Positions 29,023 through 53,690 of a stretch of 53,850 nucleotides of DNA are shown here, one piece after another (the first letter of the stretch is position 1; every line of letters starts with the position of its first letter). The DNA is taken from positions 1 to 53,850 of the forward strand of contig JAHCBA010000044.1 in assembly GCA_019634625.1 (NCBI GenBank), given 5' to 3'. The position numbers and the translations under genes were made by a program. The stretch comes from Verrucomicrobiia bacterium. Lineage in GTDB: Bacteria > Verrucomicrobiota > Verrucomicrobiia > Limisphaerales > CAIMTB01. The notes beneath the pieces were generated by a model that searched no databases, was not told where the DNA came from, and saw only the letters and a program-made list of their open reading frames with translations.

Positions 29023-30579
29023 TCAGCCAGCCAGCAGTCCCGGCCGGGTCCAGCCGCCCATCGCCGCCTCCAGATGCAGGCCGGCCGCGACGGCCACGTC
29101 CTCACGCCAGGGCCGCGCCACAATCTGCAAACCCAGCGGCATGCCCTCCGGTGACGTCCCGGCCCGGACAATCAAGGCCGGCCATCCGGTGACATTGAAC
29201 AGGCTCCGATAACTGGTGGTCGCCGGCGCCCGCTCGCCAATCACCCGCGCCGGCGAGGCGTCGGTCGGACATACCAGCAGGTCGTACCTCGAAAACCAGG
29301 TCTGCAGCCGGGACCGCATTTCGTCCTGCTGCTCCAGCAGGGTCTCGAATTCCGGCACCGACCGCATCGGACCGTCGAACACCCGCCCCGGAGACGGCGG
29401 ATGCGTGCCCACCCGGCGGTTCACCCGGCCCAGCCAGGCCCCGCCGTCCGCATCCCGCACCTGCGGCAGCAGGGCGTAGGTCTCGAGGTATCCCGACGGG
29501 GCGGATTCCTCGACCACGCACCCCGCCTCCTGCAGCACCTTCGCCGCCGACCGCACCATGGCCACCGTCTCGGCACTCGGTCCGTGGTATCCATTCACGT
29601 CAGTGAAGAACGCCACCCGCAACGCCCCGACCTTCACCGTCGCCGGATCCCCCATCGGCATCGGCGCAATCGCCGCGTCGTCGTCGTCCGGACCGGAGAT
29701 GATCGAGAGAATGGGATGGATGTCCTCGACCCACCGTGCCAGCGGCCCCAACTGCTGATAGCTGTCGTACACCCCGCCGAACCCGACCACGTGCCCGGTC
29801 CGCGGCACCCGCCCCGAGGTGGGCTTGATCCCCGCCACACCGTTGCAGTGGGCCGGATTCCGAATGCTGCCGCCAAAGTCGCTCCCAATGTCGAAGGCGG
29901 CCCCGCACGCGGCGGTGATCGCCCCCGATCCGCCGCTGCTTCCACCACAGGAGCGCGCCGGGTTGTAGGGATTGCGGCTGACCCCGAAGAGGACGTTGAC
30001 CGTGGTCCCCAGTCCGCGCAGCCCGGGGCTCCCCAACGTCCACTCCGGTGTGTTGGTCTTCCCCAGCAGGATCGCCCCGGCGGCGCGCAATCGCGCCACC
30101 GCCGTGGCGTCCTGGTCCGGCACCCGGGTCAACCACCCCAGGGTGCCGCCAGTCGTTCGAACCCCCGCCGTGTCGAGGGAGTCCTTGATCGTCATGGGCA
30201 CGCCATGCAGCGGCCCCACCGGCAGGCCCTTCGCCAGCCGCTCGTCCGCCAGTCGCGCCTCCAGCAACGCCCGGTCCGCGCACAGGGTCACCACGGCATT
30301 GATGGACGGGTTCACCCGCTCAATCCGGCCGAGATACGCCCGCACCGCCTCCTCCGCCGAGACTTCCTTCCGCCGGATCGCCTTCGCCAGCGCCATCGCC
30401 GACATCGCAGTGAGATCGCCGTCATGCTTGCGCGCCGGACCCGATGGCAGGCCGGTCACCGCACGGGCCGCCCGTGCGCCCCCGGCCGTGGCCGCCAGGG
30501 CCATCATGCCGGGAAGGGTTCGAAACAGGTCACGACGGCTCCGCGCACGCCGGACAGGGGATTCAAGGGTCTGGGTCAT
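29023..30579 (-). CDS. Exported amidase-signature enzyme, Tat-type (amidase 7)
   Basis: The ATG at 30579 gives 518 residues and places a Tat-like leader (ARSRRDLFRTLPGMMALAAT) at the N-terminus. The frame is open 219 bp further upstream, but that part overlaps amidase 8 and has no signal. The catalytic residues are K132 (MTIKDSLDTAG), S214 (CGGSSGGSGAITAACG) and S238 (GSDFGGSIRNP). Its region FFTDVNGYHGPSAETVAMV and VFDGPM is closest to amidases 8 and 10, so these three form a sub-clade. It should be a periplasmic amide hydrolase. It lies 16 bp after amidase 8 and 83 bp before amidase 6. Confidence 0.9.
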   Translation of the reverse strand: MTQTLESPVRRARSRRDLFRTLPGMMALAATAGGARAARAVTGLPSGPARKHDGDLTAMSAMALAKAIRRKEVSAEEAVRAYLGRIERVNPSINAVVTLCADRALLEARLADERLAKGLPVGPLHGVPMTIKDSLDTAGVRTTGGTLGWLTRVPDQDATAVARLRAAGAILLGKTNTPEWTLGSPGLRGLGTTVNVLFGVSRNPYNPARSCGGSSGGSGAITAACGAAFDIGSDFGGSIRNPAHCNGVAGIKPTSGRVPRTGHVVGFGGVYDSYQQLGPLARWVEDIHPILSIISGPDDDDAAIAPMPMGDPATVKVGALRVAFFTDVNGYHGPSAETVAMVRSAAKVLQEAGCVVEESAPSGYLETYALLPQVRDADGGAWLGRVNRRVGTHPPSPGRVFDGPMRSVPEFETLLEQQDEMRSRLQTWFSRYDLLVCPTDASPARVIGERAPATTSYRSLFNVTGWPALIVRAGTSPEGMPLGLQIVARPWREDVAVAAGLHLEAAMGGWTRPGLLAG

Positions 30580-30595
30580 GGGTGTTCCTAAGGGT

Positions 30596-32182
30596 TCAAA
30601 TCGCCGGGGGCCGCCATCCGCCAAACACGGACTCGAGGTGCTCCGCCACCGCAAAGGCCACGTCCTCCCGGAACGGCCTCGCCACCACTTGCAGTCCGAT
30701 CGGCAGTTCACCGGCCGACCCGCAACGCACCACCACCGAAGGCCAGCCGGTGAGGTTGTAGATCGTCGTGTAACCGGCTCCGGGCGCTGCGTCCTCACCG
30801 ATCACTCGGGCTGGAGAGGCGTTGGTGGGACAGATCAGGACATCGTACTTCTGAAACCACTGGAGATACTTCCGCTTCAGCCGGTCCCGTTCCTCGATCA
30901 ACGCACTCAGCTCGGGCACCGTCAGCATCGGCCCGTCGAACCGCCGCCCGGCCGCCGGAAAGTTCGTTCCCACCCGGTCCGCAATCCGCTTGATCCACTG
31001 GCTGCTGTCCGCAAACCGCAGCTTCGGATACAGCGCCCAGATGGCCACATACTCGTCCGGAGCCGATTCCTCGACCGACCGGCACGCCGACTGCAATGCC
31101 CGCGCCGCGCGGGTCACGGTGGCCACCGTCTCCGGCGTCGACTTGTGATGCCCCTCGACATCGGAGAAGAACGCGACCTTCAACCCCTTCAGATCCACCG
31201 CCGCCGCATCCCGGAACGGCGCCGGCACCAGCGCCGCGTCCAGCGAGTCCGGCCCGGCCATCAAGGGAGTCAGCAGGATCAAATCCTCCACCCGGCGCGC
31301 CATCGGTCCAAGCTGCTGCTGGCTGTCGTAGATCCCACCGTAGTCCACGGAATGACCCGTCCGTGACACCCGCCCCGCCGTGGCCTTGATGCCCGCAATC
31401 CCGTTGTTGTGGCATGGAGACCGGATGCTCCCGCCAAAGTCGCTCCCGATGTCGAACCCGGTCCCGTGCGCCGCCACGATCGCCCCCGCGCCGCCGCTGC
31501 TCCCCGCCGCGCTGCGTCGCGTGTCGTATGGGTTGCGCGTCAATCCGAACACCAGGTTCATCGACGTGCCCACCGAGTAGGAACCGCTCCCAATCGTGAA
31601 CTCAGGGGTGTTGGTCTTCCCCAACAGAATCGCCCCCGCCGCCCGGGACCGCGCCACCACGGTCGCGTCCTTGTCAGGCACATGATCGAACCGCCCCAGC
31701 GTCCCCCAGGTCGTCCGCACGCCCGCAGTGTCGATCGAATCCTTCACGGTCATCGGCACCCCGTGCAGCGGTCCGAGTAACCTTCCCTGCGCCAGCGCCG
31801 TGTCCGCCGCGTGCGCCTCCTGAAGCGCCCGCTCATACGACTTCGTCACCACGGCGTTGAGGTGCGGATTCACCCGCTCGATCCGCTCGATGTAGGCGTT
31901 CACCAGCTCAACCGCCGACACCTTCTTCTCCCGGATCAGTTCGGCCAGCCGCGTGGCGGAACTCTCGGTCAGAACATCGGTCTTGTGCTTCGAGGCCAGG
32001 TAACGCACGCCGGTCGAAGCCGAAGCGGCCCGTGCTGTCATCACGGCCACCGTAGGCGCCACCCAGCGCCCCGCGGTTGCCAGGAACCGCCGGCGACTGG
32101 ACCGCGCCACGGAGCCCGTCGTCGCGCTTCGTGAGGCGCTGTCTGTGGGCCCTTCAGAGGTCTGCAATTCGGAGGGAATCAT
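30596..32182 (-). CDS. Exported amidase-signature enzyme, Tat-type (amidase 8)
   Basis: The ATG at 32182 gives 528 residues with a Tat leader (SSRRRFLATAGRWVAPTVAV). A longer frame reaching 32347 would overlap amidase 9 and encodes glycine-rich shadow sequence. The catalytic residues are K147 (MTVKDSIDTAG), S228 (AGSSGGAGAIVAAHG) and S252 (GSDFGGSIRSP). One normally conserved stretch, GIKPTSGR, reads GIKATAGR here. It is nearest to amidase 7 (VAFFSDVEGHHKSTPETVA, FDGPM). The tight 11-bp and 16-bp gaps to its neighbours support one transcript. Confidence 0.9.
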   Translation of the reverse strand: MIPSELQTSEGPTDSASRSATTGSVARSSRRRFLATAGRWVAPTVAVMTARAASASTGVRYLASKHKTDVLTESSATRLAELIREKKVSAVELVNAYIERIERVNPHLNAVVTKSYERALQEAHAADTALAQGRLLGPLHGVPMTVKDSIDTAGVRTTWGTLGRFDHVPDKDATVVARSRAAGAILLGKTNTPEFTIGSGSYSVGTSMNLVFGLTRNPYDTRRSAAGSSGGAGAIVAAHGTGFDIGSDFGGSIRSPCHNNGIAGIKATAGRVSRTGHSVDYGGIYDSQQQLGPMARRVEDLILLTPLMAGPDSLDAALVPAPFRDAAAVDLKGLKVAFFSDVEGHHKSTPETVATVTRAARALQSACRSVEESAPDEYVAIWALYPKLRFADSSQWIKRIADRVGTNFPAAGRRFDGPMLTVPELSALIEERDRLKRKYLQWFQKYDVLICPTNASPARVIGEDAAPGAGYTTIYNLTGWPSVVVRCGSAGELPIGLQVVARPFREDVAFAVAEHLESVFGGWRPPAI

Positions 32183-32193
32183 GTTGGGGGGTC

Positions 32194-33756
32194 TTAGAGA
32201 TTGGGTTTCTTCCAGCCGCCGGTCCGGTCCTCGATGAACCGGGCCACCGCCATCGCCACATCGTCCCGCCACGGGGCCGCCACCACCTGGATGCCCAGGG
32301 GCAATCCCTCGGGACTCGTGCCCGCCCGCACCACCGCCGCCGGCCACCCCGACACGTTGTAGTGCCGCGTGTAATTCACATTCCTCGGAGGAGGGTTATC
32401 CAGACGCGCCGCCGCGTAAGGACTCACCGGACACAGCACCACGTCATAGTTCCGCATCCACTGCAGCATCCCGCTCCTGGCCAGATCGACTTCCTCCATC
32501 AGCCGGATAAGATCGGGTGTCGTTGCGTACTTCCCGCTGATCCGCGCCCGCAGCCCGGGATCCGCCACCGCGGTGCCGTACCGCTTCAGCAACCGCTCCT
32601 GCCACGCCCCGCCCTCGGCTTCCCGCGCCTGAGTGAACAATTCGTGCTGCTCGACATAGTTCGGGTGGATGTCCTCCTGAACCCACGCCCCGGCCTCCCC
32701 CAGCCAGCCCGCCGCGTCCCGGACCAGGCGGCGAATCTCCGGAATCGGCGGCGCCACTCCGTTGTCCGTGTAATACGCCACCCGCAGCCGCCCCACCGCC
32801 ACCTTCCCGGGATCTCCCATCGGGACGTCATAACAAAACGCATCATCGAGATCCTCGCCGCAGATGATGGGCATCAAGAGCTCGATGTCCTCCATCCGCC
32901 GCGCCATCGGCCCAAGCTGCTGCCACGAATCAAACAGTCCTCCGTATCCGGGCACATGCCCCGTCCGCGGTGTCCGCCCCGAGGTCGGCTTGATTCCGGC
33001 AATGCCGTTGGCATGACACGGTCCGCGAACACTTCCCCCAAGATCGCTCCCGATGTCGAAGGCCGCCCCGCACGCCGCCACAATCGCCCCCGCCCCCCCG
33101 GAACTCCCCGCCGGCGAATGCGCCAGGTTGTACGGATTGTAAGTCTGTCCAAACAACAGATTCGCCGTGCCCCGGGACCCTCCGCCCATCGTGAACTCCG
33201 GCGTGTTCGACTTGCCCAGAAGGATCGCCCCGGCCGCCCGCAGTCGCGCCACCACCGTCGCATCCTTCTCCGGCACATACAGTGCCCGACCCAGCGTTCC
33301 CGAGGTGCTCACCACCCCGGCCGTCTCCAGGGAGTCCTTGATGGTGAACGGCACCCCGTGCAGTGGTCCCATCACCTTCCCCGCCGCCAGCGCTTCGTCC
33401 GCCCTCCGCGCCTCCAGCCGTGCCCGGTCGGCGCAGAGCGTCACCACCGCGTTGATCTTCGGATTCACCTCCTCGATCCGGTCCAGATACGCCTGCACCG
33501 CCGCCCGCGCAGTGACTTCCCGGCGCCGGATCTTCTCCGCAAGCTGCTTCGCCGACAGTTCGATCAAGGGCACGTCACCCGCCGGGGTCAACGAGCCCCG
33601 AAGCCGGGGACTGGCCATCACCCCCGCAGCCATCGCCAGCCCGGCGCTCGACTTGAGAAAGGTCCGCCGGCGCCACCCGCGCCCGCTACCCGTACCCGCT
33701 CTCCCGTTCAGGACCGCTTCGCGGCCCGCCTTGGTTTTGGATGTCATGGAATTCAT
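32194..33756 (-). CDS. Exported amidase-signature enzyme, Tat-type (amidase 9)
   Basis: This 520-residue enzyme has a Tat leader (GWRRRTFLKSSAGLAMAAGV). The catalytic residues are K140 (FTIKDSLETAG), S218 (AGSSGGAGAIVAACG) and S242 (GSDLGGSVRGP); Leu and Val replace the Phe and Ile usual for this clade. Its variable region (YYTDNGVAPPIPEIRRLV, VQEDIHPNYVE) pairs with amidase 3. The two are separated by seven genes, so they did not arise from the most recent local duplication or have since been shuffled. The gaps are 9 bp after amidase 10 and 11 bp before amidase 8. Confidence 0.9.
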   Translation of the reverse strand: MNSMTSKTKAGREAVLNGRAGTGSGRGWRRRTFLKSSAGLAMAAGVMASPRLRGSLTPAGDVPLIELSAKQLAEKIRRREVTARAAVQAYLDRIEEVNPKINAVVTLCADRARLEARRADEALAAGKVMGPLHGVPFTIKDSLETAGVVSTSGTLGRALYVPEKDATVVARLRAAGAILLGKSNTPEFTMGGGSRGTANLLFGQTYNPYNLAHSPAGSSGGAGAIVAACGAAFDIGSDLGGSVRGPCHANGIAGIKPTSGRTPRTGHVPGYGGLFDSWQQLGPMARRMEDIELLMPIICGEDLDDAFCYDVPMGDPGKVAVGRLRVAYYTDNGVAPPIPEIRRLVRDAAGWLGEAGAWVQEDIHPNYVEQHELFTQAREAEGGAWQERLLKRYGTAVADPGLRARISGKYATTPDLIRLMEEVDLARSGMLQWMRNYDVVLCPVSPYAAARLDNPPPRNVNYTRHYNVSGWPAAVVRAGTSPEGLPLGIQVVAAPWRDDVAMAVARFIEDRTGGWKKPNL

Positions 33757-33765
33757 GGGTTCGGA

Positions 33766-35304
33766 TTAAATCGCCGGCGCCTTCCAACCTCCGGTCATGG
33801 ACTCGATCGCCGCCATCACCGCGAAGACGACGTCCTCGCGCCACGGGTGCCCAATGACCTGGATCCCCATCGGCATGCCCTCGGGCGAAGTCCCCGCCCG
33901 GACCACCCCGGCCGGCCATCCATTCAGGTTGTAGATGGTCCGGTAGCTCGATGAACCCGGGTTCGGCGCCCCATGCAGAGGCGCCCCATACGCCTGGGTC
34001 GGACAGACGATCACGTCGTAATCCCTGAACCACCTCGCCTGCTCCTGCCGGATGCGATCCTGCTCCTCCAGCAGATGCGTGAACTCAGCCGCCGTGGAGG
34101 TCTTGCCAGTGACTCGCGCCTGGACCGTCGGATACAGCGTCTCCGTACCCCATCGCTTCGCTGTCCGCTGGATGTGACTGCCACCCCCGGCCGCCCTCGC
34201 CTTCTGCATGATCGCAATCCCCTCCGGAATGGCCGGCGGCGCACTCTCCGTGATCGATGCCACCTCACCTTCCAACCCCCCAAGCACCCGCTTCACCATC
34301 GCCACCGTCTCCGGCCGCGGCTGATGATACCCTTCCGTGTCCGTATAGAAGGCCACCCGCAGACCCTTCAGCTTCACATCCGCTGTCCCGCCCAGCGGAA
34401 CATCAGTCACATGCGTGTCCACGTCGTCGGAACCCATGATGATCCGCAGCACAAGGTCCACGTCGCTCACGGTCCGTGCCAGGGGCCCGATCTGGGTGCG
34501 CCGGTTGAAGATCCCGTGCAGATCCACAATGTGACCCGTCCTCGGAACCCGGCAGTTGGTCGGCTTGATCCCGGCCACGCCGTTGTAATGGCATGGCGAT
34601 CGGATGCTTCCCCCGGTGTCTGAACCCAGATCAAAGGGCACCCCGCCCGCCGCCACGATCGCCCCGGACCCACCGCTGCTCCCCCCGGGAATCCGTGTCA
34701 GGTCATAGGGGTTGTTGGTCCGCCCATAGACAAGGTTGTCCGTGAATGAGCCCATCGTGAATTCAGGCGTGTTGGTCTTCCCCACCAGGATCGCCCCCGC
34801 CGCACGCAACCGCGCCGTCACGGTGGCGTCCTTCCCGGGTACGAACCCCTTCCGCCCCAGCGTGCAACCCGTCGTCACCACGCCCTCGCTGTCGATCGAG
34901 TCCTTCAAGGACATCGGCACCCCATGCAGCGCCCCAAGTCTCTCCCCCCGCGCCTGCCGCTCGTCGGCCATCCGCGCCTCGGCCCGGGCCCGATCGTAAC
35001 ACGCCATCACCAGCGCATTGAGCTTCGGATTCACCGCCTCGATCCGGCGGATGCACGCGTCCACGGCCTCCCGGGCGGAGACCTCGCGCCGCCGGATCAT
35101 GGACGCCATCACCGTCGCCGGGAGATAGTGCAGTTCCGAACCGCCACCCCGCCCTGCCCCGGACTGCGCCCGGGCCCCCATTCGATGTCCGGCCATCAGG
35201 ACCGCTCCGGCCATCCCGGCCCGTGTTCCTGTCGCCAGGAACTCACGCCGGTCGAGGCCGGTTCCTGTTGTCTTCACGTTCGTACTCCGTTCGGTGCTTC
35301 TCAT
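33766..35304 (-). CDS. Exported amidase-signature enzyme, Tat-type (amidase 10, first hydrolase of the run)
   Basis: The ATG at 35304 gives 512 residues with a Tat leader at once (LDRREFLATGTRAGMAGAVL). Starts at 35355 or 35409 are possible but add only polar residues. The catalytic residues are K134 (MSLKDSIDSEG), S209 (PGGSSGGSGAIVAAGG) and S233 (GSDTGGSIRSP). It differs from the other Tat-type members by having NRRTQIGPLARTVSD where they have a QQLGPxAR motif, and DT rather than DF or DL before GGS, so it sits at the base of the clade. It follows the TonB-dependent receptor by 114 bp, the largest gap in the run. Confidence 0.88.
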   Translation of the reverse strand: MRSTERSTNVKTTGTGLDRREFLATGTRAGMAGAVLMAGHRMGARAQSGAGRGGGSELHYLPATVMASMIRRREVSAREAVDACIRRIEAVNPKLNALVMACYDRARAEARMADERQARGERLGALHGVPMSLKDSIDSEGVVTTGCTLGRKGFVPGKDATVTARLRAAGAILVGKTNTPEFTMGSFTDNLVYGRTNNPYDLTRIPGGSSGGSGAIVAAGGVPFDLGSDTGGSIRSPCHYNGVAGIKPTNCRVPRTGHIVDLHGIFNRRTQIGPLARTVSDVDLVLRIIMGSDDVDTHVTDVPLGGTADVKLKGLRVAFYTDTEGYHQPRPETVAMVKRVLGGLEGEVASITESAPPAIPEGIAIMQKARAAGGGSHIQRTAKRWGTETLYPTVQARVTGKTSTAAEFTHLLEEQDRIRQEQARWFRDYDVIVCPTQAYGAPLHGAPNPGSSSYRTIYNLNGWPAGVVRAGTSPEGMPMGIQVIGHPWREDVVFAVMAAIESMTGGWKAPAI

Positions 35305-35418
35305 GGATGTTCCAGATCGGCTCTCGCCAGTTGCTTGGGTCAGTTCCGCGCTCATGCAGTTCCACCCGGTTCTCCGTTCCTCGGCGTCCATCGGTGGATC
35401 TCCCTGCATTCCCGCCTC

Positions 35419-38079
35419 TCAGAAGGTCCGCGCCAGGGTCGCCTCGACATTGAAGGGCTGTCGCACCCCGACCATCATCCCGGCGTTCGCACCGCGGACG
35501 AAATACTGCTCGTTGGTCAGGTTGTTCAGGTCCAGCTTCGCCTGCCACGGACCCTTGTTGTAAAACAGGGTCGAGTTGAGCGTCGTCGCCGCCGGCAGGT
35601 TCCATATCAGCGTCCGATCCGCCGCGAATCCACCCTGGTGACTCACCCCGAAGCCCGCCCCGAACCCGCTGCTGTGCGTGTAAGTCGCAAACAGGTTGAA
35701 AATCCGGTCCGGGATCCCCGGCACCTCGCTGTAAATGCCGCCGTGCGGAATGTTGACCTGCGGCTTGCCACCCCACCCGAACGCCTCCGCGGGCACGATG
35801 ACCTGTCCCGTCGCCGGATCGATCACGTCCGAGAAGCCCACGTACCGGCCATTGACCTGCTGGCTCCCCCCGGAAAGGAAGTTCGCCCGGCTGAACACCG
35901 CCGATCCCACGATGCTGACACTCCGGGTCGGGGCGTACCGCACCTCGAACTCAATCCCGCGGCTCACCGTCGCGTCCACCGATTCCACGCCGTCGTCCAG
36001 CGAGAATGAGGTCCGGTTCTGCTCGAAGTACGCCAGCGCCGCAAACAGCCGGTTGTCAAGGAAGGTTCCCTTCAACCCCACCTCCACAATTTCCGACCTG
36101 GCATAGGGACCCCGGTTCCAACTGCTGGGCGCAATCGACGCATCCGACGTGTCCACCAGCAGCGCCGCCTGCTGGGCCACCGTGACATAGGGCCGCAGGT
36201 TGTACGGCGCCAGATAGCTCATGCTGGCACTCCAGGAGAAGTCATGATCGTTCCCGCTCGCCTCCACCGGCGTCGTGCTCAACCGGTTCTCGATGTTCTC
36301 GGTCAACCCGAAGTTGGCCGCATTCTTGCCCTTGAATACACCGGGCGGTTCGTAGTACCGCCCGTCCACATAGTCGAACCGGCCGCCCACGATGAAATTC
36401 ACCTTCTCCAGCAGGGTCTGGTCCGTCAGCATTCCCACCCCCGCCTCCCAGTACTGCGAATCGTTGATCCGCGTGATGGCACTGCCGTCCAGGCCGCGCC
36501 GGTCCAGAAAACTGTAGAAGGTGTCGTTCGGGCTGAATCCCCCGTTCGGCCCCGACATCAGGTCCCGCCGCTGGTCGTAGTCGGAGTTGGTCGTGTTTTC
36601 CCGGTAGGTGTCCGTGTAACGCCCGTTCACCGACGCCAGGAAAGTCCCCTGCAACCAGTCCGGCTGCCAGTCCGCCTCGTGCGACACCGTGAACTTGTTC
36701 TCAAACGTCGTCGGCCTCTGAATCTGCGAGAATGGGTTCCTCCCGTCCTTCACCTGATCATAGGTGTGGAAGTACATCTGGTTCTTCATCGTGAGTTCGG
36801 GGTTCACGTCGTTGATGACGTCGAAGTACACGTCGAAGATGGTGGCGTCGTAAAAGTCCTCTCCCAGCGTCCTCCGGAAGTTGTAGTCCACCAGTTCCCA
36901 CGAATCGTAGTCGAGCTGCCAGGGCTCGGGCAGATTGGTGAGCGCCGCCGCCCCCGAACCGATGACCGCCCCGGTGTCCACCCGCCGCACCGGCCCGATC
37001 GGCCGCCCTGTCTCGTCCACCTCCTGCTTGAATGTCGGCGTTCCCGTGACGGTGCCGAAGTTGACGAAGATCGGGTTGTACGCAGCGTCAGCCCGCCGTG
37101 ACGCAAACAACTCCCGGTCCGAGATCTTCCCGTCCCCGTTCGCGTCCAGCGGCACAGAGAACCCTCCGCTCCAGTACTTGCCCTGTGTGAACAGGTCCTG
37201 GGTCACCCGGTTCACCCCGCCGTTGAGTCCGCCGCGGGAGTCCTGAATCACAATGCCGGTCTCAGCCCGCCACACATCGTTGATGTCCGCCGACACCGCC
37301 AGCTGACCGACGAGGTGCTTGTCAAAGTTGGTCTCGTAATAGGATCCCGAATCCTCGAAGAACCCGTAGAAGTAGAATCCCGCCTTCCGCTCGGACCCGA
37401 AGACCTTCACCGGCCCGCCGTATTCCGCCTGCGCCACCCGCTTGTCCCACGAGCCGATCGTCATGCTCAGCTTGCCCTCGTTCGACTCCATGTACTTCCC
37501 CGTCACGCTCCGCGCGGTCTTCGGGTTGAAGTTGAGATAGCCGCCGATCCGCCCGCCGCCGAAGATCGGGGACGCCGGCCCGCGCACCACCTCGATCGAG
37601 TCGAACGCCGTGAAAATGGTCCGGTAATTCCCCTGGGGATCGGGCTTCTTCATGCCCCGGAAATAGTAGTCTCCGGACTGGTTGCGCACGTTGATGCCGC
37701 CCTGAAGACCAAACCGGAAGTTGGTGTAGGTGCTGGGCGCGACACGGTACAGGTCCTCGACGTGCTCCACCCCGGCGGCGGTAAGCAGTTCGGCACTTAA
37801 CACGGTCACGGACCGGGGCGTGTCCAGAATGGACTTGTTGAAGCCGATGACGCTTTCCACCGGCGTCGTGGGCAGGATGAAGGTCGGGTCACTGCCTCCC
37901 ATCGCCTCCAAAGCTTCCACTTCCCCGGCGGCGCCCTCCATGTCGCTGCTGGCCGTGGTGCTGCCCTCTCCGGTCCGCTGCGCTTTGGCATCCAGGATCA
38001 GATCCGGCGTCTGGGTGAGAACCCCCAGGACCAGCAGGGCACGAATGGAACGTAGTAGTGAGTTGTTGGTGGGATTCAT
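35419..38079 (-). CDS. TonB-dependent outer-membrane receptor with an EF-hand-like loop
   Basis: The ATG at 38079 gives 886 residues with an N-terminal hydrophobic segment (LLRSIRALLVLGVLTQTPD) as the export signal; a frame open 183 bp upstream adds only a low-complexity Arg/Pro-rich segment. The plug domain covers about 65-190 (ILDTPRSVTVLSAELL, IEVVRGPASPIFGGGRIGG), followed by a beta-barrel ending in Phe (NVEATLARTF). A canonical EF-hand calcium loop, DANGDGKISDRE, lies at 312-323 (37111-37146), in a region expected to be extracellular. No clear TonB box was found. It should import a ligand too large for porins, energised by the divergent ExbB-ExbD-TonB operon. It is the promoter-proximal gene of the 16-gene run, so its ligand is probably the amidase substrate or a breakdown product. 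Confidence 0.9.
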   Translation of the reverse strand: MNPTNNSLLRSIRALLVLGVLTQTPDLILDAKAQRTGEGSTTASSDMEGAAGEVEALEAMGGSDPTFILPTTPVESVIGFNKSILDTPRSVTVLSAELLTAAGVEHVEDLYRVAPSTYTNFRFGLQGGINVRNQSGDYYFRGMKKPDPQGNYRTIFTAFDSIEVVRGPASPIFGGGRIGGYLNFNPKTARSVTGKYMESNEGKLSMTIGSWDKRVAQAEYGGPVKVFGSERKAGFYFYGFFEDSGSYYETNFDKHLVGQLAVSADINDVWRAETGIVIQDSRGGLNGGVNRVTQDLFTQGKYWSGGFSVPLDANGDGKISDRELFASRRADAAYNPIFVNFGTVTGTPTFKQEVDETGRPIGPVRRVDTGAVIGSGAAALTNLPEPWQLDYDSWELVDYNFRRTLGEDFYDATIFDVYFDVINDVNPELTMKNQMYFHTYDQVKDGRNPFSQIQRPTTFENKFTVSHEADWQPDWLQGTFLASVNGRYTDTYRENTTNSDYDQRRDLMSGPNGGFSPNDTFYSFLDRRGLDGSAITRINDSQYWEAGVGMLTDQTLLEKVNFIVGGRFDYVDGRYYEPPGVFKGKNAANFGLTENIENRLSTTPVEASGNDHDFSWSASMSYLAPYNLRPYVTVAQQAALLVDTSDASIAPSSWNRGPYARSEIVEVGLKGTFLDNRLFAALAYFEQNRTSFSLDDGVESVDATVSRGIEFEVRYAPTRSVSIVGSAVFSRANFLSGGSQQVNGRYVGFSDVIDPATGQVIVPAEAFGWGGKPQVNIPHGGIYSEVPGIPDRIFNLFATYTHSSGFGAGFGVSHQGGFAADRTLIWNLPAATTLNSTLFYNKGPWQAKLDLNNLTNEQYFVRGANAGMMVGVRQPFNVEATLARTF

Positions 38080-38271
38080 GTTGTGGAGTTTCCGGGGTGC
38101 GTCGGGCGTCCTGCGCCGCAACACTCCTCGACTCACTCGGGGGGATCGGGAATCGGAGGAGCCGCGCCCCGGCGCACCGCACCTAGCACCGGGCATGCCA
38201 GGCGATGCGCCCCGGTTCCTGTCACTTCCCCAGGCCGGCCGCCTGGCCGTTTCAGGCGACACATTACGGAG

Positions 38272-38294
38272 TCAGGCATCCCTGCCATGCCTGA
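38272..38294. promoter_or_regulatory. Inverted repeat upstream of the TonB-dependent receptor
   Basis: TCAGGCAT (38272-38279) and ATGCCTGA (38287-38294) are perfect 8-bp arms with a 7-nt spacer, about 190 bp upstream of the receptor ATG. It could be an operator or a leader hairpin. Confidence 0.4.
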
Positions 38295-38389
38295 AACCGA
38301 TCCATCCGTGAGTTCATCCTCGACTCAGCCATGAATGGATTGGCATCCGTCACCGTTCCGGCCCCTGGATGAATTCCAACAGACCGCTG

Positions 38390-38408
38390 GCATGAGCAGT
38401 GCTCATGC
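38390..38408. promoter_or_regulatory. Perfect 19-bp dyad with LysR-type T-N11-A box
   Basis: GCATGAGCAGTGCTCATGC has 9-bp arms around one central base. T38393 and A38405 are separated by 11 nt inside the dyad, the classical LysR-regulator signature. It lies between the divergent transcription units, 310 bp from the receptor ATG and 407 bp from the DUF3450 ATG. The LysR gene that could bind it is the last gene of the plus-strand operon (44377-45354). Confidence 0.55.
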
Positions 38409-38724
38409 TTCCTTGGCAGCCGGCCGGATGGTGGATTGGTTCGTTCTTGATCAGTCGGCGGGTGTTTGTGCACAGGCTGACCACTTTTCGCCCCGTCCGG
38501 CCCCGCCTGCCCCGTTCCGGTCCCGCCCAGCCCTGTTCCTCATCCATCGTGAACGGAGTTCGAGGAGTGCGGGCAGCTGGTTTCTGGGGGACGACAAGCC
38601 TGGCCGCCCTTGCGGACCCACACCGGGGAACTCTGGCACAGTGGGTGCTAGGCGGATGGCGGTTGCGCTGGGCGGCAGTGCTTCTCTCCGGGATCAGCCC
38701 GGGGAATCCCCTGGAGCATGAGCC

Positions 38725-38815: not shown

Positions 38816-39586
38816 ATGAAGTCGCCATTCCGTCTCCTGCTGTGCTCCCTCGTCACCGCTGCCGCCCTGTCCTCCCACGCAACCTCGCCCATCGAGGAGG
38901 TGCGCAACCTCTGGAAGGAATGGTCCAACGTCAAGGCCACCATCTCCGAGGAACGTAATGCCTGGGCCCGCGAACAGCAGGCGATCGCCGATGCCCTCGC
39001 CGTTTCCACCCAGGAAATCGAACTCCTCACCAGCCGGCTTTCCACCCTCGACGACGCGTCGTCCGGCACCGAGCAGGCCCGCTCGGAACTCCTCGAGAAG
39101 ATCGCCGCCTCGAAGACCCAGGTGGTGATCTTCAACGAGGCCATCGACCGGTTCGAGAATGCGATGCGTTCCCTCGTTCCCGCCCTTCCACCCCACCTTC
39201 GCACCGAACTCGGCCCCGTCCTCATGCGCCTTCCCGCCGCCGGCCGACCCAATCCCCTCCCCGTCTCCCAGCGCCTGCAGACGGTCGTCGCCTTCCTCGC
39301 CCAGCTCGACCGGTTCAACTCCACCCCGTCCCTGGTCAGCGAGGTGCGTGAAGTCGAACCCGGTCGCTCCATGGAGGTCCGCACCCTCTACTTCGGCCTC
39401 GGCATCGCCTACTTCAGCGATCCAAGCGCCCAGTACGCGGGCTTCGGACAACCTTCCGCCGACGGCTGGACCTGGACGCGCGCCGAAGGCCCGGCCGCAC
39501 TCCGCATTGCCGACGCCATCGCCGTCCAACGCAACGAGAAGCAACCCGCATTCGTGTCCCTTCCCGCCAGGCTGGCGGTCCGCTGA
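38816..39586 (+). CDS. DUF3450 family periplasmic coiled-coil protein
   Basis: This 256-residue protein has a signal peptide (MKSPFRLLLCSLVTAAALSS). A long predicted coiled coil follows (about 25-115, rich in Glu/Gln/Ala/Leu heptads, for example EQARSELLEKIAASK), then a globular C-terminal region with RTLYFGLGIAYFSD. This matches DUF3450 proteins, which are typically the first gene of TonB2-type operons ahead of a TtpC-like ExbB. A role in contacting the TonB complex is presumed from family context only. It is the first gene of the plus-strand operon, and the next gene starts 50 bp later. Confidence 0.75.
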   Translation: MKSPFRLLLCSLVTAAALSSHATSPIEEVRNLWKEWSNVKATISEERNAWAREQQAIADALAVSTQEIELLTSRLSTLDDASSGTEQARSELLEKIAASKTQVVIFNEAIDRFENAMRSLVPALPPHLRTELGPVLMRLPAAGRPNPLPVSQRLQTVVAFLAQLDRFNSTPSLVSEVREVEPGRSMEVRTLYFGLGIAYFSDPSAQYAGFGQPSADGWTWTRAEGPAALRIADAIAVQRNEKQPAFVSLPARLAVR

Positions 39587-39636
39587 TCCGTCCCGACCTC
39601 CGCCCCCCCCGACCTGTCCAACCCACGTTCCCGCTC

Positions 39637-41076
39637 ATGAAGAAGCTCCTCACCCTCACTTCCCTCTGCCTGGCGGCAGCCTCCCTCCAGGCGCAAACCG
39701 CCTCCGGCCCCCTCTCTCCGGCACCCGCACGTGCCCAACTGGTCGAAGCCCAGCAGGAACTCTCCCGCCTCCGCGACCAGATCACCGCCGCCAAAATCCC
39801 CCTCGCCGTCGCCCTCCGGGAAGCCGAAACCGAACTCCTCGCCAAACGCCGCGAAGCCGAACGCCTCCAACGCCTCGCCGACAATCGCAGCGTGGATCTC
39901 CGCAATCTCGAGACCGAGGAGAAGATGCGCGCAGACGAGATCGACTACATCTCGACGCTGCTCACCGACTACACCAGCCGCCTCAACTCCACCATCGACT
40001 CCAGCGAAATCCAGATCTACGGCAGGCAACTCACCCACCTCCTCAACCTCGCCGAAAATCCCGACCTTCCCCGCGAAGAGGTCCTCCGCTCCAAGGTCGC
40101 CGTCCTCGACCTCGGCTTCGAACGGCTCCTCGCCCGGCTCGGCGGGGCCCGCTTCGACGGCCGCGCCATCCTTCCCGACGGCTCCGTCGAGCCCGGCACC
40201 TTCGCCCTCCTCGGTCCCCTCTCCTACTTCCGTACCGCCGATGGCAAACAAGCCGGTCTCGTCGAGCGCGGCGCCGCCGAGCACCCGAAGATCACCGTCT
40301 TCTCCCGCACCGAAATCCCCGCCATCGCCGGCTTCATCGCCGCCGGCGATGGACCCCTCCCCGTGGACCCCACCCTCGGCAAAGCCAAGGCCATCGTCAC
40401 CAGCAAGGAATCCCTCGGCGAGCATATCCAGAAGGGCGGCCTCTGGATGTTCCCCATCCTCGGCTTCGGCGCCGCCGCCGTCGTCATGGCCCTCTTCAAA
40501 CTCTGGGAACTCTCCAGTGTCAAACGCCTCCCCAAGACCGTGCTCCGTGAGGTCCTCGCCCTCCTCGGTCAGGGCAAGGCCAGCGAAGCCGCAAAAACCC
40601 TGCGCACCCATACCAGCCCCGCCTCCCGCATGCTCAACGAGGCCATCCACAACCTCAAACTCCCCAAGGAGGTCCTCGACGAAATGATGTTCGAAACCAT
40701 GCTCGAAGTGCAGCCCAGGCTCGAACGCGGCCTCTCCTTCATCTCCGTCACCGCCGCCGTCGCCCCGCTCCTCGGCCTCCTCGGCACCGTCACCGGCATG
40801 ATGACCACCTTCAACCTCATCACCCTCTTCGGCACCGGCGATGCCAAATCCCTCTCGTCCGGCATCTCCGAGGCCCTCATCACCACCGAGTTCGGCCTCA
40901 TCGTCGCCATCCCCTCCCTCCTCCTCTACGGCTACCTCTCCCGTCGGGTCAACGGAGTCATGGGTGACATGGAACAGATCTCCACCGCCTTCAGCAACGG
41001 CGTCGCCGCCATCCGATCCCGTCAACCGGATCTCGACCTCAGCCTCGCCGGCTCCCCCGAACCGGTCGCCGCCTGA
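39637..41076 (+). CDS. MotA/TolQ/ExbB-family proton channel with long periplasmic N-terminus (TtpC-like)
   Basis: This 479-residue protein has a signal peptide (MKKLLTLTSLCLAAASLQA), a periplasmic coiled coil (about 28-120) and a globular part to ~260. The ExbB module follows: TM1 at ~268-290 (WMFPILGFGAAAVVMALFK), TM2 at ~368-392 (AVAPLLGLLGTVTGMMTTF) and TM3 at ~410-435 (EALITTEFGLIVAIPSLLLY). This layout is that of Vibrio TtpC, an extra component of TonB2 systems. Together with the shorter ExbB and the ExbD encoded next, it should use the proton gradient to drive TonB. The gene symbol is left open because the homology is at family level. Confidence 0.88.
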   Translation: MKKLLTLTSLCLAAASLQAQTASGPLSPAPARAQLVEAQQELSRLRDQITAAKIPLAVALREAETELLAKRREAERLQRLADNRSVDLRNLETEEKMRADEIDYISTLLTDYTSRLNSTIDSSEIQIYGRQLTHLLNLAENPDLPREEVLRSKVAVLDLGFERLLARLGGARFDGRAILPDGSVEPGTFALLGPLSYFRTADGKQAGLVERGAAEHPKITVFSRTEIPAIAGFIAAGDGPLPVDPTLGKAKAIVTSKESLGEHIQKGGLWMFPILGFGAAAVVMALFKLWELSSVKRLPKTVLREVLALLGQGKASEAAKTLRTHTSPASRMLNEAIHNLKLPKEVLDEMMFETMLEVQPRLERGLSFISVTAAVAPLLGLLGTVTGMMTTFNLITLFGTGDAKSLSSGISEALITTEFGLIVAIPSLLLYGYLSRRVNGVMGDMEQISTAFSNGVAAIRSRQPDLDLSLAGSPEPVAA

Positions 41077-41110
41077 ACCTTCCCGCCCTCACCCCCCCTC
41101 CCCGCACCCC

Positions 41111-41833
41111 ATGCTGACCGCCGATTTCACCCAGCAGGTCCTCCAGCTCTGGACCAATGGCGGGTTCCTCATGATCCCGCTGGCCCTCCAGTGCCTCGCC
41201 ATCTACTACGTCGTCTTCGACCTCTACTTCGATCTTCGTGGCAAGGACTTCCTCCACACCGACGAAAATCGATGGGGCCACTGGATCGACCAGCCGGCCG
41301 ACGCCACCGGTGAGATGGCCGACATCGTCCGCTATACCCAGGACGGCGTCCGCTCGCTGGCGGACATCCGCGAGCGCTTCGCCGAGGTGAAGGCCACCTA
41401 CCTCCCCGCCCTCGACCGCCGCCTTCGCTGGGTCGTCATGATCATCAGCACCGCCCCCCTCACCGGCCTCCTCGGCACCGTCACCGGCATGCTCGCCACC
41501 TTCGCCGGCATCTCCGGTGGCGGTGGCGGCAAGGATACCGTGGACCTCGTGGCCGGCGGCATCTCCGAAGCCCTCATCACCACCCAGACCGGCCTCGTCA
41601 TCGCCATCCCCGGTTATGTCGTGGTCTCCCGCGTCCGGCGCCTCCGCGACCGCCTCGATCTCTTCCTTCGTCGCGCCGAAAACCTCACCCTCAAACGCTT
41701 CGCCCGGCTCCTCCCCGAAGGAACCGGCCCGGATCAACCCGCCCCGCCCGCCCCGCCCGCCCCAATCCCCCCCTCCCATCCCGCCGCGCCCCAACCGGAT
41801 GCCTTCGGCGGTCTGGCCCCTGCCACCTCCTAA
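41111..41833 (+). CDS. exbB: ExbB-like biopolymer transport protein
   Basis: The ATG at 41111 gives 240 residues. An upstream frame reaching 40841 is shadow sequence within the previous gene. TM1 lies near the N-terminus (GGFLMIPLALQCLAIYYVVF). TM2 (TAPLTGLLGTVTGMLATFAG) and TM3 (SEALITTQTGLVIAIPGYVV) carry the MotA/TolQ/ExbB signature. A Pro/Ala-rich tail of about 35 residues is unusual for ExbB. It should form the pentameric inner-membrane proton channel with ExbD. It begins 34 bp after the TtpC-like gene and ends 12 bp before exbD. Confidence 0.9.
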   Translation: MLTADFTQQVLQLWTNGGFLMIPLALQCLAIYYVVFDLYFDLRGKDFLHTDENRWGHWIDQPADATGEMADIVRYTQDGVRSLADIRERFAEVKATYLPALDRRLRWVVMIISTAPLTGLLGTVTGMLATFAGISGGGGGKDTVDLVAGGISEALITTQTGLVIAIPGYVVVSRVRRLRDRLDLFLRRAENLTLKRFARLLPEGTGPDQPAPPAPPAPIPPSHPAAPQPDAFGGLAPATS

Positions 41834-41845
41834 CCCCCTCCCCCC

Positions 41846-42256
41846 ATGCCACGCCGATCCCTTGCCCGCGCCATCCCCGTCAGCGACGAAATCAACATCT
41901 CGCCGCTCATCGACATGGTCTTCATCCTCCTCATCTTCTTCATCGTCACCACGGTCTTCGTCGAGGAAACCGGTGTCCAGGTGAGCAAGCCCGAGGCGAC
42001 CGCCGCCCTGCCCCTCGAATCCAACAGCATCCTCATCGCCATCACCTCCAACGGCAAGGTCGTGTACGGCGGCCGTGAGGTCGGCGTCGGTGGCGTCCGC
42101 TCCGTCGTCCGCCGCCTCACCCAGGGAAACCCCGACATGCCCGCCATCCTCCAGGCGGACAAATCGGTCCCCACCGAACTCCTCGTCAAGGTCATCGACG
42201 AGGCCAAACTCGGCGGCGCCAAGGCCGTCAGCATCTCCACCGAAGGCAACCGCTGA
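41846..42256 (+). CDS. exbD: ExbD biopolymer transport protein
   Basis: This 136-residue protein has a short cytoplasmic N-terminus and one TM helix with the ExbD signature [20 protein letters not shown]. The Asp in PLIDM is the conserved proton-carrying residue. The periplasmic domain ends in [20 protein letters not shown], typical of the family. It works with ExbB to energise TonB. It lies 12 bp after exbB and 7 bp before tonB. Confidence 0.95.
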
Positions 42257-42263
42257 CTCACGC

Positions 42264-42947
42264 ATGAGGACTCCCAAGGATCGCTTCCTCGCCCCGTTCG
42301 CGCCCAAGGGCGCCTCGCGCCGTCGCATGGCCCCGTTCGCCGCCATGGGCCTCTGCGCCGCCGCCACCTTCCTCCTCCTCCCCTTCACCACCCTCCTCTC
42401 CGCCAGCGGCAAAACCCGCGAGGAACTTCGCATGGTCGAGGTAAGCCTCCCCCCGCCCCCACCCCCGCCCCCAGACTTCGAACCCCCGCCGGAGGATACC
42501 CCGCCGCCCGAACCCGAACCGCCCGACACCTCCGCCCAGCCCCTCTCCCTCGCCCAGATGGAGATCGCCCTCAATCCCGGCTTCGGCGACGCCCTCGCCG
42601 GCGGGTTCAATATCGACTCCTTCGCCACCCAGACCGAGGCCACCACCGTCGCCGATCTCCAGATCTTCGATGTCCAGGACCTCGACCGCCCTCCAGCCCG
42701 CATCCGTACCGTCACCCCCACCTATCCCCTCGAACTCCGACGCGCCCGCGTCCAGGGCACCGTCGTCCTCCTGCTCATCATCGACCAATCGGGTCGTGTC
42801 ACCGTGGACCGCGTCCTCGAATCCTCCGTCCGCGAGTTCGTGCAACCCGCCGTGGCCGCGGCGGAACAATGCCTCTTCGAACCCCCCATGAAGGGCGGAC
42901 AACCCGTCCGTGCCCGCTATCGCATGCAGGTCCCCTTCCGACTGTGA
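42264..42947 (+). CDS. tonB: TonB-family energy transducer
   Basis: The ATG at 42264 gives 227 residues; an upstream frame into exbD is shadow. It has a cytoplasmic basic N-terminus and one TM helix (about 24-46, MAPFAAMGLCAAATFLLLPF). A proline-rich spacer follows (62-88, PPPPPPPP then PPPEPEPP), and then the TonB C-terminal domain (about 147-227; TPTYPLELRRARVQGTVVLL, with DQSGRVTVDRVLESS). It should contact the TonB box of outer-membrane receptors, most likely including the divergently encoded receptor at 35419-38079. The Pro-rich spacer is short for spanning a full periplasm. Confidence 0.93.
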   Translation: MRTPKDRFLAPFAPKGASRRRMAPFAAMGLCAAATFLLLPFTTLLSASGKTREELRMVEVSLPPPPPPPPDFEPPPEDTPPPEPEPPDTSAQPLSLAQMEIALNPGFGDALAGGFNIDSFATQTEATTVADLQIFDVQDLDRPPARIRTVTPTYPLELRRARVQGTVVLLLIIDQSGRVTVDRVLESSVREFVQPAVAAAEQCLFEPPMKGGQPVRARYRMQVPFRL

Positions 42948-42997
42948 ACCCCCAGCCATCATCCCCTCGCAACCCGGTAATCCTCACCCCTCTGCCC

Positions 42998-44362
42998 ATG
43001 AAACGTCGTATCCCCCTCATCGCCTGTCTCTCCCTCTCCCTCGCCGCGCTCCACGCCGCCGAACCCGGCCGCCCCCTCTTCGAGAACTCCTGGAGCAATC
43101 CCCAGTTCGTCTCCCGCTTCCTCGGTACCTACGGCTTCGATAGCGGCCTCAACCCCGGCATCTCCGCCGAGGAAAAGGCCCTCTTCGAAAAACTCGTCCC
43201 CGTCATCCAGTCCCAGCCCGCCAACGCCATCACCCAGCTCCGCGCCGCCATCAAACCCACCAGCAGCGGCGCCCTCGACTTCACCCTGGGCAATCTCCTC
43301 TTCCAAACCGGCAACCTCGACGAGGCCGCCGCCGCCTACCAGGCCGCCCTCCAGAAGTTCCCCACCTTCCTCCGGGCCCACAAAAACATCGGCCGGCTCT
43401 ACGTTCAGCAGGGCCGTCCCCGCGACGCCCTCCCCCACCTTCTCCGCTGCATCGAACTCGGTGGCGGCGAGGGCGACATCTATGGACTGGTCGGCTACTG
43501 CTATCTCCAGGACAACGCCGTCAGCAGCGCCCTCGACGCCTATCGCACCGCCCTCCTGTTCGCCCCCAAAAGCCGTGACTGGCGCCTCGGCAAGGTCCAG
43601 TGCCTGATCAACCTCGGACAACACGGCGAGGCCGTCGGACTCCTCGACGAACTCATCTCCGAAAACCCCGCCGAAGCCAGCCTCTGGCTCCTTCAGGCCA
43701 ATGCCTTCGTCGCCAATGGCCGCCCCGCCGATGCCGCCGTGAATCTCGAAGTCGTCCGCCAGATGGGTCAGGCCACCCCCATCTCCCTCGCCCTCCTCGG
43801 CGACATCTACATCAACGCCAACCAGCCCGACCTCGCCGTCGAGGCCTATTCCGACCTCCTCAAAGGCCAGACCACGGACATGGAACGTGCCCTCCGTGCC
43901 GCCCGGATTCTTGCCTCCCGCTCCGCCTGGGCCGAAGCCGAGGTCTATCTCAAACGCCTCCAGGAACGCCTCACCGACCGTCTTCCGCCCAACGATCAGT
44001 TCGAAGTCCTCGGTCTCCTCGCCAAGGTCGCGCTTGCCCGCGGCCAGAACGACGAAGCCGCCAGCCTCCTCCAGCAGGTCCTCGCCCGGGATCCCCTCAA
44101 CGGTCGCGCCCTTCTCCTCCTCGCCGACTACTACTGGAAAAAGAACGATCGCGAACGCGCCGAACTCCACTTCGTCCGTGCCGCCAATGTCGAGGACGTC
44201 CGGGTCGAGGCCCTTATCCAGCACGCCCGCCTCTGCGTCGCCCACCGCGACTTCGCCGCCGCTTCCCGCCTCCTCAACCGGGCCCAGGGCCTCCAACCCC
44301 AACCCCATGTCGGTGACTTCCTCGCCAAGGTCGAAGCCGCAGCCCGTGCCGCGCGCCTCTGA
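42998..44362 (+). CDS. Exported TPR-repeat protein of the TonB operon
   Basis: The ATG at 42998 gives 454 residues with a signal peptide (MKRRIPLIACLSLSLAALHA-AEP). The rest is a run of tetratricopeptide-like repeats, for example LGNLLFQTGNLDEAAAAYQA, HKNIGRLYVQQGRPRDALPH and LLADYYWKKNDRERAELHFV. A TPR protein after tonB is a common feature of TonB2-type operons, where it probably scaffolds the complex in the periplasm. It lies 50 bp after tonB and 14 bp before the LysR gene. Confidence 0.85.
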   Translation: MKRRIPLIACLSLSLAALHAAEPGRPLFENSWSNPQFVSRFLGTYGFDSGLNPGISAEEKALFEKLVPVIQSQPANAITQLRAAIKPTSSGALDFTLGNLLFQTGNLDEAAAAYQAALQKFPTFLRAHKNIGRLYVQQGRPRDALPHLLRCIELGGGEGDIYGLVGYCYLQDNAVSSALDAYRTALLFAPKSRDWRLGKVQCLINLGQHGEAVGLLDELISENPAEASLWLLQANAFVANGRPADAAVNLEVVRQMGQATPISLALLGDIYINANQPDLAVEAYSDLLKGQTTDMERALRAARILASRSAWAEAEVYLKRLQERLTDRLPPNDQFEVLGLLAKVALARGQNDEAASLLQQVLARDPLNGRALLLLADYYWKKNDRERAELHFVRAANVEDVRVEALIQHARLCVAHRDFAAASRLLNRAQGLQPQPHVGDFLAKVEAAARAARL

Positions 44363-44376
44363 CCCTCGCGCCCCCT

Positions 44377-45354
44377 ATGCAGCCCCTCTTCGACAGCCGC
44401 CAGCTCCTCGCCTTCTCCGTCCTCGCCCAGACCGGCAGCTTCACCCAGACCGCCCGCGAACTTCAGGTCTCCCAGAGCGCGATCAGCCATGCCATCCGCG
44501 CCCTCGAAAACCGGGTCGGCTGCCGGCTGTTCGAACGGAACAGCCGCCAGGTCCTGCTCACCCCCGCTGGCGAGCAGTTCCTCCATCACGTCGGGAAGAT
44601 CAATCACGAGATGGCGGCCGCCCACGCCGCCCTCCAACTCCTCCGCAACTGGGGCCAGTTCCAGCTCCGCATCGCCGCCCCGGGCTCCGTCTGCGACCTC
44701 CTCCTCCCCCCCTGCCTTGCCGAAATCCGGCGCCAGTACCCCAACGCCGTCATCAGCCTCACCGCCGCCGACCGCCACGAGGCCCTCGCCGAACTTCTTG
44801 CCGGTCGCGTGGACCTCGCCGTGGTCCTCGGCACCGAACCCGACGAACGCTTCGAATACCATCCCCTCTTCGAGGACGAACTCTCCTTCGTCACCCCCCT
44901 CGATCATCCCTGGGCCACCCACGCCCCCATCGACCCCGCCGCCATTGGCTCCCAACCCCTCCTCACCTACCGCCGCCAGTCCTACACCTGGCACCTCATC
45001 AACGACTACTTCGCCGCCGACGGCATCCAGCCCACCGTCATCCTCGAATGCGACAGCTACACCGCCATCCGCCGCATGGTCGCCCTCGGCATGGGTGTCG
45101 GCATCCTCGCCGGCTGGGTCGCCGCCACCGACCTCGCCGGCGATCGCCTCACCTGCGTGCCCCTCGGTCCCCGCCGCCTCACCCGCCGCTGGGGCACCCT
45201 CTCCCTCCGCACCAAACGCCTCTCCCTCCCCCAGACCCTCTTCATCGAGCACACCCGCCAGGCCGGCCTCGGCCTGCTCGCCTCCCTCACCCGCCCGGAC
45301 CCCCGCATCCAATCCCCCTGCCCCAACCCGTTGTCGCCGTCCCCCTCCCATTAG
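44377..45354 (+). CDS. LysR-family transcriptional regulator
   Basis: This 325-residue cytoplasmic regulator has a winged helix-turn-helix at about 5-65 (SFTQTARELQVSQSAISHAI, ALENRVGCRLFERNSR) and a LysR substrate-binding domain to ~300 (LLAGRVDLAVVLGTEPDE, MGVGILAGWV). The last ~20 residues are proline/serine-rich. It lies 14 bp after the TPR gene and so is probably co-transcribed with the TonB module. A T-N11-A dyad at 38390-38408 lies at the head of this operon and of the divergent amidase run, so the protein is the best candidate for regulating both and itself. The inducer is unknown and could be an amide or degradation product. Confidence 0.92.
   Translation: MQPLFDSRQLLAFSVLAQTGSFTQTARELQVSQSAISHAIRALENRVGCRLFERNSRQVLLTPAGEQFLHHVGKINHEMAAAHAALQLLRNWGQFQLRIAAPGSVCDLLLPPCLAEIRRQYPNAVISLTAADRHEALAELLAGRVDLAVVLGTEPDERFEYHPLFEDELSFVTPLDHPWATHAPIDPAAIGSQPLLTYRRQSYTWHLINDYFAADGIQPTVILECDSYTAIRRMVALGMGVGILAGWVAATDLAGDRLTCVPLGPRRLTRRWGTLSLRTKRLSLPQTLFIEHTRQAGLGLLASLTRPDPRIQSPCPNPLSPSPSH

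Positions 45355-51083: not shown

Positions 51084-53690
<2,607 letters not shown>

Follow-up and report, generated by a model that had tools for sequence, protein, structure and literature searches.

How two divergently oriented gene sets, one comprising a TonB-dependent receptor and amidases and the other a TonB module, are controlled from the 736-bp gap between them is the question raised by this locus, which lies in a 53.8-kb stretch (hereafter the window, meaning the whole stretch of DNA that was analysed) of a 6.74-Mb Verrucomicrobiota genome. The original prediction offered an answer: an exact 19-bp inverted repeat in the gap, bound by the LysR-type regulator encoded at the end of the plus-strand set, could serve as a single switch for both sides. 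Its description of the locus was borne out. The repeat (38390-38408, GCATGAGCAGTGCTCATGC) has 9-bp perfectly complementary arms around a 1-bp centre, so that "19-bp exact" is to be read as 9+1+9; T-N11-A spacing is present inside this interrupted dyad (T at 38393, A at 38405); the gap extends from the receptor start at 38079 to the DUF3450 start at 38816; and the plus-strand set is closed by a gene with HTH_1 and LysR_substrate domains. The genes concerned are the following:
29023-32347: further amidase open reading frames
32194-33756 and 33766-35409 (span 32194-35409), minus strand: two amidase-signature genes of the minus-strand set
35419-38079, minus strand: TonB-dependent receptor with a plug domain, first gene of the minus-strand set, its ATG at 38079 read from the sequence
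38816-44362, plus strand: TonB module, comprising DUF3450, ExbB, ExbB, ExbD, TonB and a TPR protein
44377-45354, plus strand: LysR-type regulator, 14 bp past the TPR gene

The locus is shared, to differing extents, by relatives of the source genome (G000). The same-genus relative G003 (Verrucomicrobiota bacterium isolate KLAP45, CAUJJW010000274) carries the entire locus in the same gene order, with 68% identity for the receptor and 65% for the LysR protein. In G288 and G290, which belong to another family of the same order, the receptor and amidases are divergent from a TonB-ExbB-ExbD-coiled-coil-LysR set whose LysR protein is 50% identical, and in G107 the receptor and the DUF3450/ExbB set are present on a contig that ends inside the operon. 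Linkage of the LysR gene to the module is found in four genomes (G000, G003, G288 and G290) from two families. The amidase-signature genes form a tandem run beside the receptor in the window (29023-35409), and at least six amidase-like stretches occur in the G290 locus (L069). Downstream of the LysR gene, an AbgT-family transporter gene occupies 47151-48728 of the window; none was seen in those parts of the G003, G288 and G290 loci that were retrieved. A role of the locus in nitrogen metabolism is suggested by the amidases, the transporter partners of the LysR clade and the proposed dependence on sigma-54 described below, and the 736-bp region is probably the control region of a nitrogen-scavenging locus. 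Rfam and tRNA scans of the window gave no matches, and neither intrinsic terminators nor sigma-70-like promoters were found in the control region. The region also holds a second inverted repeat at 38272-38294 (TCAGGCAT-N7-ATGCCTGA), of which no counterpart was found in G003.

Taken alone, the symmetry of the dyad is weak evidence and does not exceed chance in 53.8 kb, because about 0.9 perfect dyads with arms of at least 9 bp and a spacer of 0-1 bp are expected over this length (two are seen, the other at 30460). A shuffled gap would hold one in about 1% of cases. The latter value is scaled to spacers of 0-1 bp from the roughly 7% of shuffled 736-bp regions that contain a perfect dyad with arms of at least 9 bp and a spacer of up to 16 bp; the occurrence of the dyad within the gap is, by itself, mildly unusual. 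The dyad is single-copy in the 6.74-Mb genome, even with two mismatches allowed. Its weight is borne not by symmetry, but by its match to the box of the LysR clade and its match to the sigma-54 consensus.

The sigma-54 match is part of a wider arrangement. When the window was scanned (107,668 positions) using a -24/-12 matrix composed after the published sigma-54 consensus, the sites ranked 1, 2 and 4 all fell inside the 736-bp gap:
38185-38201, minus strand: -24/-12 element CTGGCATGCCCGGTGCT, rank 4, 106 bp before the receptor start; G003 counterpart at L058:10325
38387-38403, plus strand: -24/-12 element CTGGCATGAGCAGTGCT, rank 1, overlapping the dyad and directed at the exbB/TonB operon; retained in G003 as GTGGCATGACTGGTGCT
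38633-38649, plus strand: -24/-12 element CTGGCACAGTGGGTGCT, rank 2, with the DUF3450 start 167 bp further on; G003 has a positional counterpart (L058:10730)

All three contain GG and GC at -24/-12 spacing within TGGCAYR-N5-TGCW. The outer two face outwards at distances from their genes (106 and 167 bp) suitable for a promoter, and the middle one is followed by 413 bp before DUF3450, with no gene starting soon after it. The same three sites are found in G003 with order and strands unchanged; in G288 and G290 each side has a single outward site, those of G290 being two of only four strict matches in 3.8 Mb. The word TGGCAYR-N5-TGCT is present in nearly all of the control regions compared at the relatives' loci. 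It is this outward sigma-54 pair, kept in the dyad-less G288 and G290, that proved to be the shared and most strongly conserved feature, and the notion of one site and one regulator as the common switch was not supported; the original prediction had overlooked the divergent sigma-54 promoters and thereby misread the region as a one-regulator switch.

The whole genome contains 15 copies of the strict pattern YTGGCAYRN5TGCW, of which three lie within the 736-bp region; a reversed control also gives 15, so that there is no genome-wide enrichment. With the 4-bp spacer, the control regions of five loci gave 11 hits scoring 13 bits or more, compared with 0-2 for any other spacer, none for the reversed matrix and at most one for permuted matrices. 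Genes of the flgB, fliW and rtcA type are commonly sigma-54-dependent elsewhere, and because strict matches precede flgB in the source genome, fliW (twice) in G288 and rtcA in G107, where the site is beside an enhancer-binding-protein gene, use of the motif as a sigma-54 promoter in these bacteria is supported. The element at 38185-38201 differs by one mismatch from that before flgB in the same genome, and RpoN was found in every genome tested for it. Both outward gene sets appear to be driven by sigma-54 promoters. Separately, strict sites lie before a Ro60/TROVE-like gene (G003:C27, L092) as well as before rtcA (G107:C111, L112), and these are probably Rtc-type RNA repair loci in the order.

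Enhancer-binding proteins are present at the genome level, none of them adjoining the locus, and no gene for one was found on the locus contigs; a match at 52896 was rejected, as it sits in an AAA/Clp-type protein. A search for an enhancer site (UAS) shared across all loci yielded no 8-mer common to all. The word ATTCGAT is enriched only in G288 and G290, where four repeats in G288 and two, plus near matches, in G290 lie between the outward sigma-54 sites (L066:11760-12130, L067:13170-13600) against an expectation of 0.1-0.2; these are candidate enhancer or shifted LysR sites.

Evidence on the LysR side of the dyad comes from relatives of the regulator. Homologs of the locus LysR (about 44% identical) occur in many genera of the order, and those examined are divergent from NMT1-like or MFS transporter genes. 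In most of 44 such homologs, a 15-bp box, ATGAA-N5-TTCAT, itself a T-N11-A dyad, ends 2 bp before the start codon; matches of at least 9/10 were found in 32 of the 44, with 1.2-1.9 bits in the box columns. A symmetric matrix was built from 32 distinct boxes of relatives, with the window and the G003 locus left out of training, and it bears on two sites in the window:
38371-38385: second LysR box ATGAATTCCAACAGA, degenerate (just its left half-site) and weak in the window, aligned with a full G003 box ATGAACCAATCCCAT
38392-38406: proposed LysR box ATGAGCAGTGCTCAT, ATGAR-N5-YTCAT with T-N11-A spacing, the dyad core, rank 3 of 53,836

The dyad half-sites ATGAG/CTCAT match the clade's ATGAA-N5-TTCAT box, and the core is the best LysR-box site of the intergenic region. 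Exact ATGAR-N5-YTCAT occurs six times in the 6.74-Mb genome, the dyad core being one of these, and not at all for the reversed control. The top three of 19,887 positions in G003 all fall in its 675-bp control region; they include the dyad ortholog ATGACTGGTGCTCAT at 10500 and, 23 bp from it, another box at 10477, which are the two best sites of that region. A shuffle test used a slightly stricter training set, to which boxes of the G000 and G003 paralogs (L141, L142) were added and from which this locus was excluded: the best box score was reached by 18 of 1000 shuffled regions for the window (1.8%) and by 36 of 1000 for G003 (3.6%), and two boxes as good as the G003 pair appeared in 0.3% of shuffles. 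As an observation on the clade itself, a rigid layout precedes the LysR homologs across the order (L030-L047, L117-L141) where they are divergent from NMT1-like or MFS transporters, with -24/-12-like elements about 83 bp (minus strand) and about 56 bp (plus strand) upstream of the LysR start and the ATGAA-N5-TTCAT box at 17 bp.

The proposal that the dyad is a LysR site has consequently gained ground from the relatives' box, which matches its half-sites, and from the linkage of the LysR gene in four genomes and two families, and it stands as a predicted site. Conservation of the dyad in relatives sharing the locus, the criterion set by the original prediction, was mixed: G003 keeps the T-N11-A half-sites (ATGAC-N5-CTCAT) but only 5 of the 9 arm pairs, and no LysR box was found in G288 or G290, where, outside the genus, the dyad is absent. 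The recognition helix of the LysR protein also differs in these two genomes (ALTARISQSAVS versus ARELxxSQSAxS), and LysR specificity may have shifted in their family. The dyad is most likely a docking site of a LysR-type regulator, and probably the box of the locus LysR in this genus. The conserved architecture would be that of divergent sigma-54 promoters, with the dyad as a lineage-specific LysR box.

The LysR box (38392-38406) and the middle -24/-12 element (38387-38403) have 12 bp in common, and their conservation is not fully separable because most letters are shared. In several LysR homologs, including the source-genome paralog L141 (before an NMT1-like gene), there is likewise a LysR box that overlaps a TGGC-N9-GCT element, at a constant 31 bp upstream of the main box. 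Because a similar arrangement recurs before LysR homologs, the overlap may be a used design and not an accident. Perhaps, too, just one of these two elements functions at the dyad. We give a real but minor chance to the view that the dyad is merely a third sigma-54 promoter, its symmetry being coincidental and helped along by the core of the -24/-12 consensus, GCA...TGC, with LysR acting elsewhere. The site is the best sigma-54 match of the window, G003 keeps the sigma-54 letters and loses four arm pairs (the outermost and three inner ones), and chance alone should give roughly one perfect dyad of such size in 53.8 kb; however, G003 also retains CATG after the -12 element, which falls outside the sigma-54 consensus and inside the right LysR half-site, and the relatives' box matrix places the site third of 53,836. 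The converse, an ordinary LysR box whose overlapping -24/-12 match does not act as a promoter and from which LysR controls the flanking promoters from mid-region, is unlikely. The relatives' ATGAA-N5-TTCAT box, the matrix rank, the shuffle results and the 413 bp without a gene start between the middle element and DUF3450 are consistent with it, but the overlapping match is the window's best and is kept in G003, and the dyad is separated from each outer promoter by some 190-240 bp, well away from where LysR proteins usually bind to activate.

That same mid-position, at a plausible enhancer distance from both outer promoters (about 190-240 bp), would suit an enhancer site (UAS) for an enhancer-binding protein firing both of them, a reading made very improbable by the retention of both outer promoters in G288 and G290 without the dyad and by the overlap with a -24/-12 element; the locus contigs also offer no enhancer-binding-protein gene for comparison. 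A further alternative concerns the TGGC-N9-GCT elements as a whole, which might be operators of the LysR clade or of another nitrogen regulator and not sigma-54 promoters. Before the LysR homologs of many genera they do stand at fixed places (-83 on the minus strand, -56 on the plus strand), back to back and about 10 bp apart, but the same strict pattern precedes flgB, fliW and rtcA, the spacing matches that of the sigma-54 GG/GC pair exactly, and the sites at this locus face outwards with TGGCA fitting at every one, so that we consider the operator interpretation improbable.

The arrangement we favour, with roughly an even chance of being correct, is a divergent sigma-54 control region with two outward promoters and, in the middle, a LysR box (the dyad) superimposed on a third -24/-12 element, through which the LysR protein exerts feedback. 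It starts from what sequence comparison provides, namely the sites, their ranks and conservation, the presence of RpoN, the box of the LysR clade and the linkage, and would add to these the identity of the bound protein, repression rather than activation and a nitrogen signal. One outward -24/-12 promoter would serve the TonB-dependent receptor and amidases and the other the DUF3450-ExbB-ExbD-TonB-TPR-LysR operon, and an enhancer-binding protein acting in trans would activate the two at once. The LysR protein, as the last product of the TonB operon, would most likely bind the dyad as a dimer and compete with, or gate, sigma-54 polymerase at the middle promoter (38387-38403, plus strand), resulting in feedback on the TonB/LysR operon. 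On the best reading, sigma-54 is the conserved switch of both operons. More tentatively, it is possible that LysR-type regulators control sigma-54 promoters directly by occupying the -24/-12 element, a mode that this LysR clade may use, throughout an order of Verrucomicrobiota, at two loci related to nitrogen, one with the TonB receptor and amidases and one with the NMT1-like transporter.

Parts of this arrangement have counterparts in known systems. Both MetR and Nac, two LysR-type regulators, act at sigma-70 promoters, and in Klebsiella the nac gene is itself read from a sigma-54 promoter under NtrC-sigma-54 nitrogen control. The present locus resembles nac in that a LysR regulator gene would be transcribed, in connection with nitrogen, from a sigma-54 promoter, and differs in the placement of the LysR box on a sigma-54 element and in an enhancer-binding protein that is only postulated. 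The LysR/NMT1-like divergent regions of the order share homologous LysR proteins, the same box and -24/-12-like elements that sometimes overlap it, whereas their target is an NMT1-like (nitrate/sulfonate-type) transporter and the main box abuts the LysR start codon. The MetR site is TGAA-N5-TTCA (PMC13393422), and enterobacterial MetR, like the system described here, pairs a LysR-type protein with a dyad of 13-15 bp that has this half-site and an N5 centre, and shows tandem boxes within a divergent region as well as autoregulation (PMC13393422, PMC5002191); unlike in MetR, the box described here coincides in part with a sigma-54 element, and a 7-gene operon ends with the regulator gene. The Burkholderia cenocepacia porin BCAL3473 is reported to have a sigma-54 promoter, a response to nitrogen depletion and a LysR regulator, and it is likewise an outer-membrane uptake gene for nitrogen compounds; it is a porin and not a TonB-dependent receptor, and a superimposed LysR box is not described in the available portion of the source (PMC10117139). 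A survey of sigma-54 regulon predictions left TonB control by sigma-54 in Flavobacteriia unconfirmed, with LysR unmentioned in its text (PMC12316311). The literature searched contained no direct precedent for LysR boxes overlapping sigma-54 promoters or for LysR/nrtA in Verrucomicrobiota.

If the proposed arrangement is true, a TonB-dependent uptake module and amidases would be under sigma-54 control in Verrucomicrobiota. To our knowledge, little is known of the sigma-54 regulon of this phylum. The arrangement, for which exact DNA boxes are given for both LysR and sigma-54, predicts a LysR protein that would act on a sigma-54 rather than a sigma-70 promoter.
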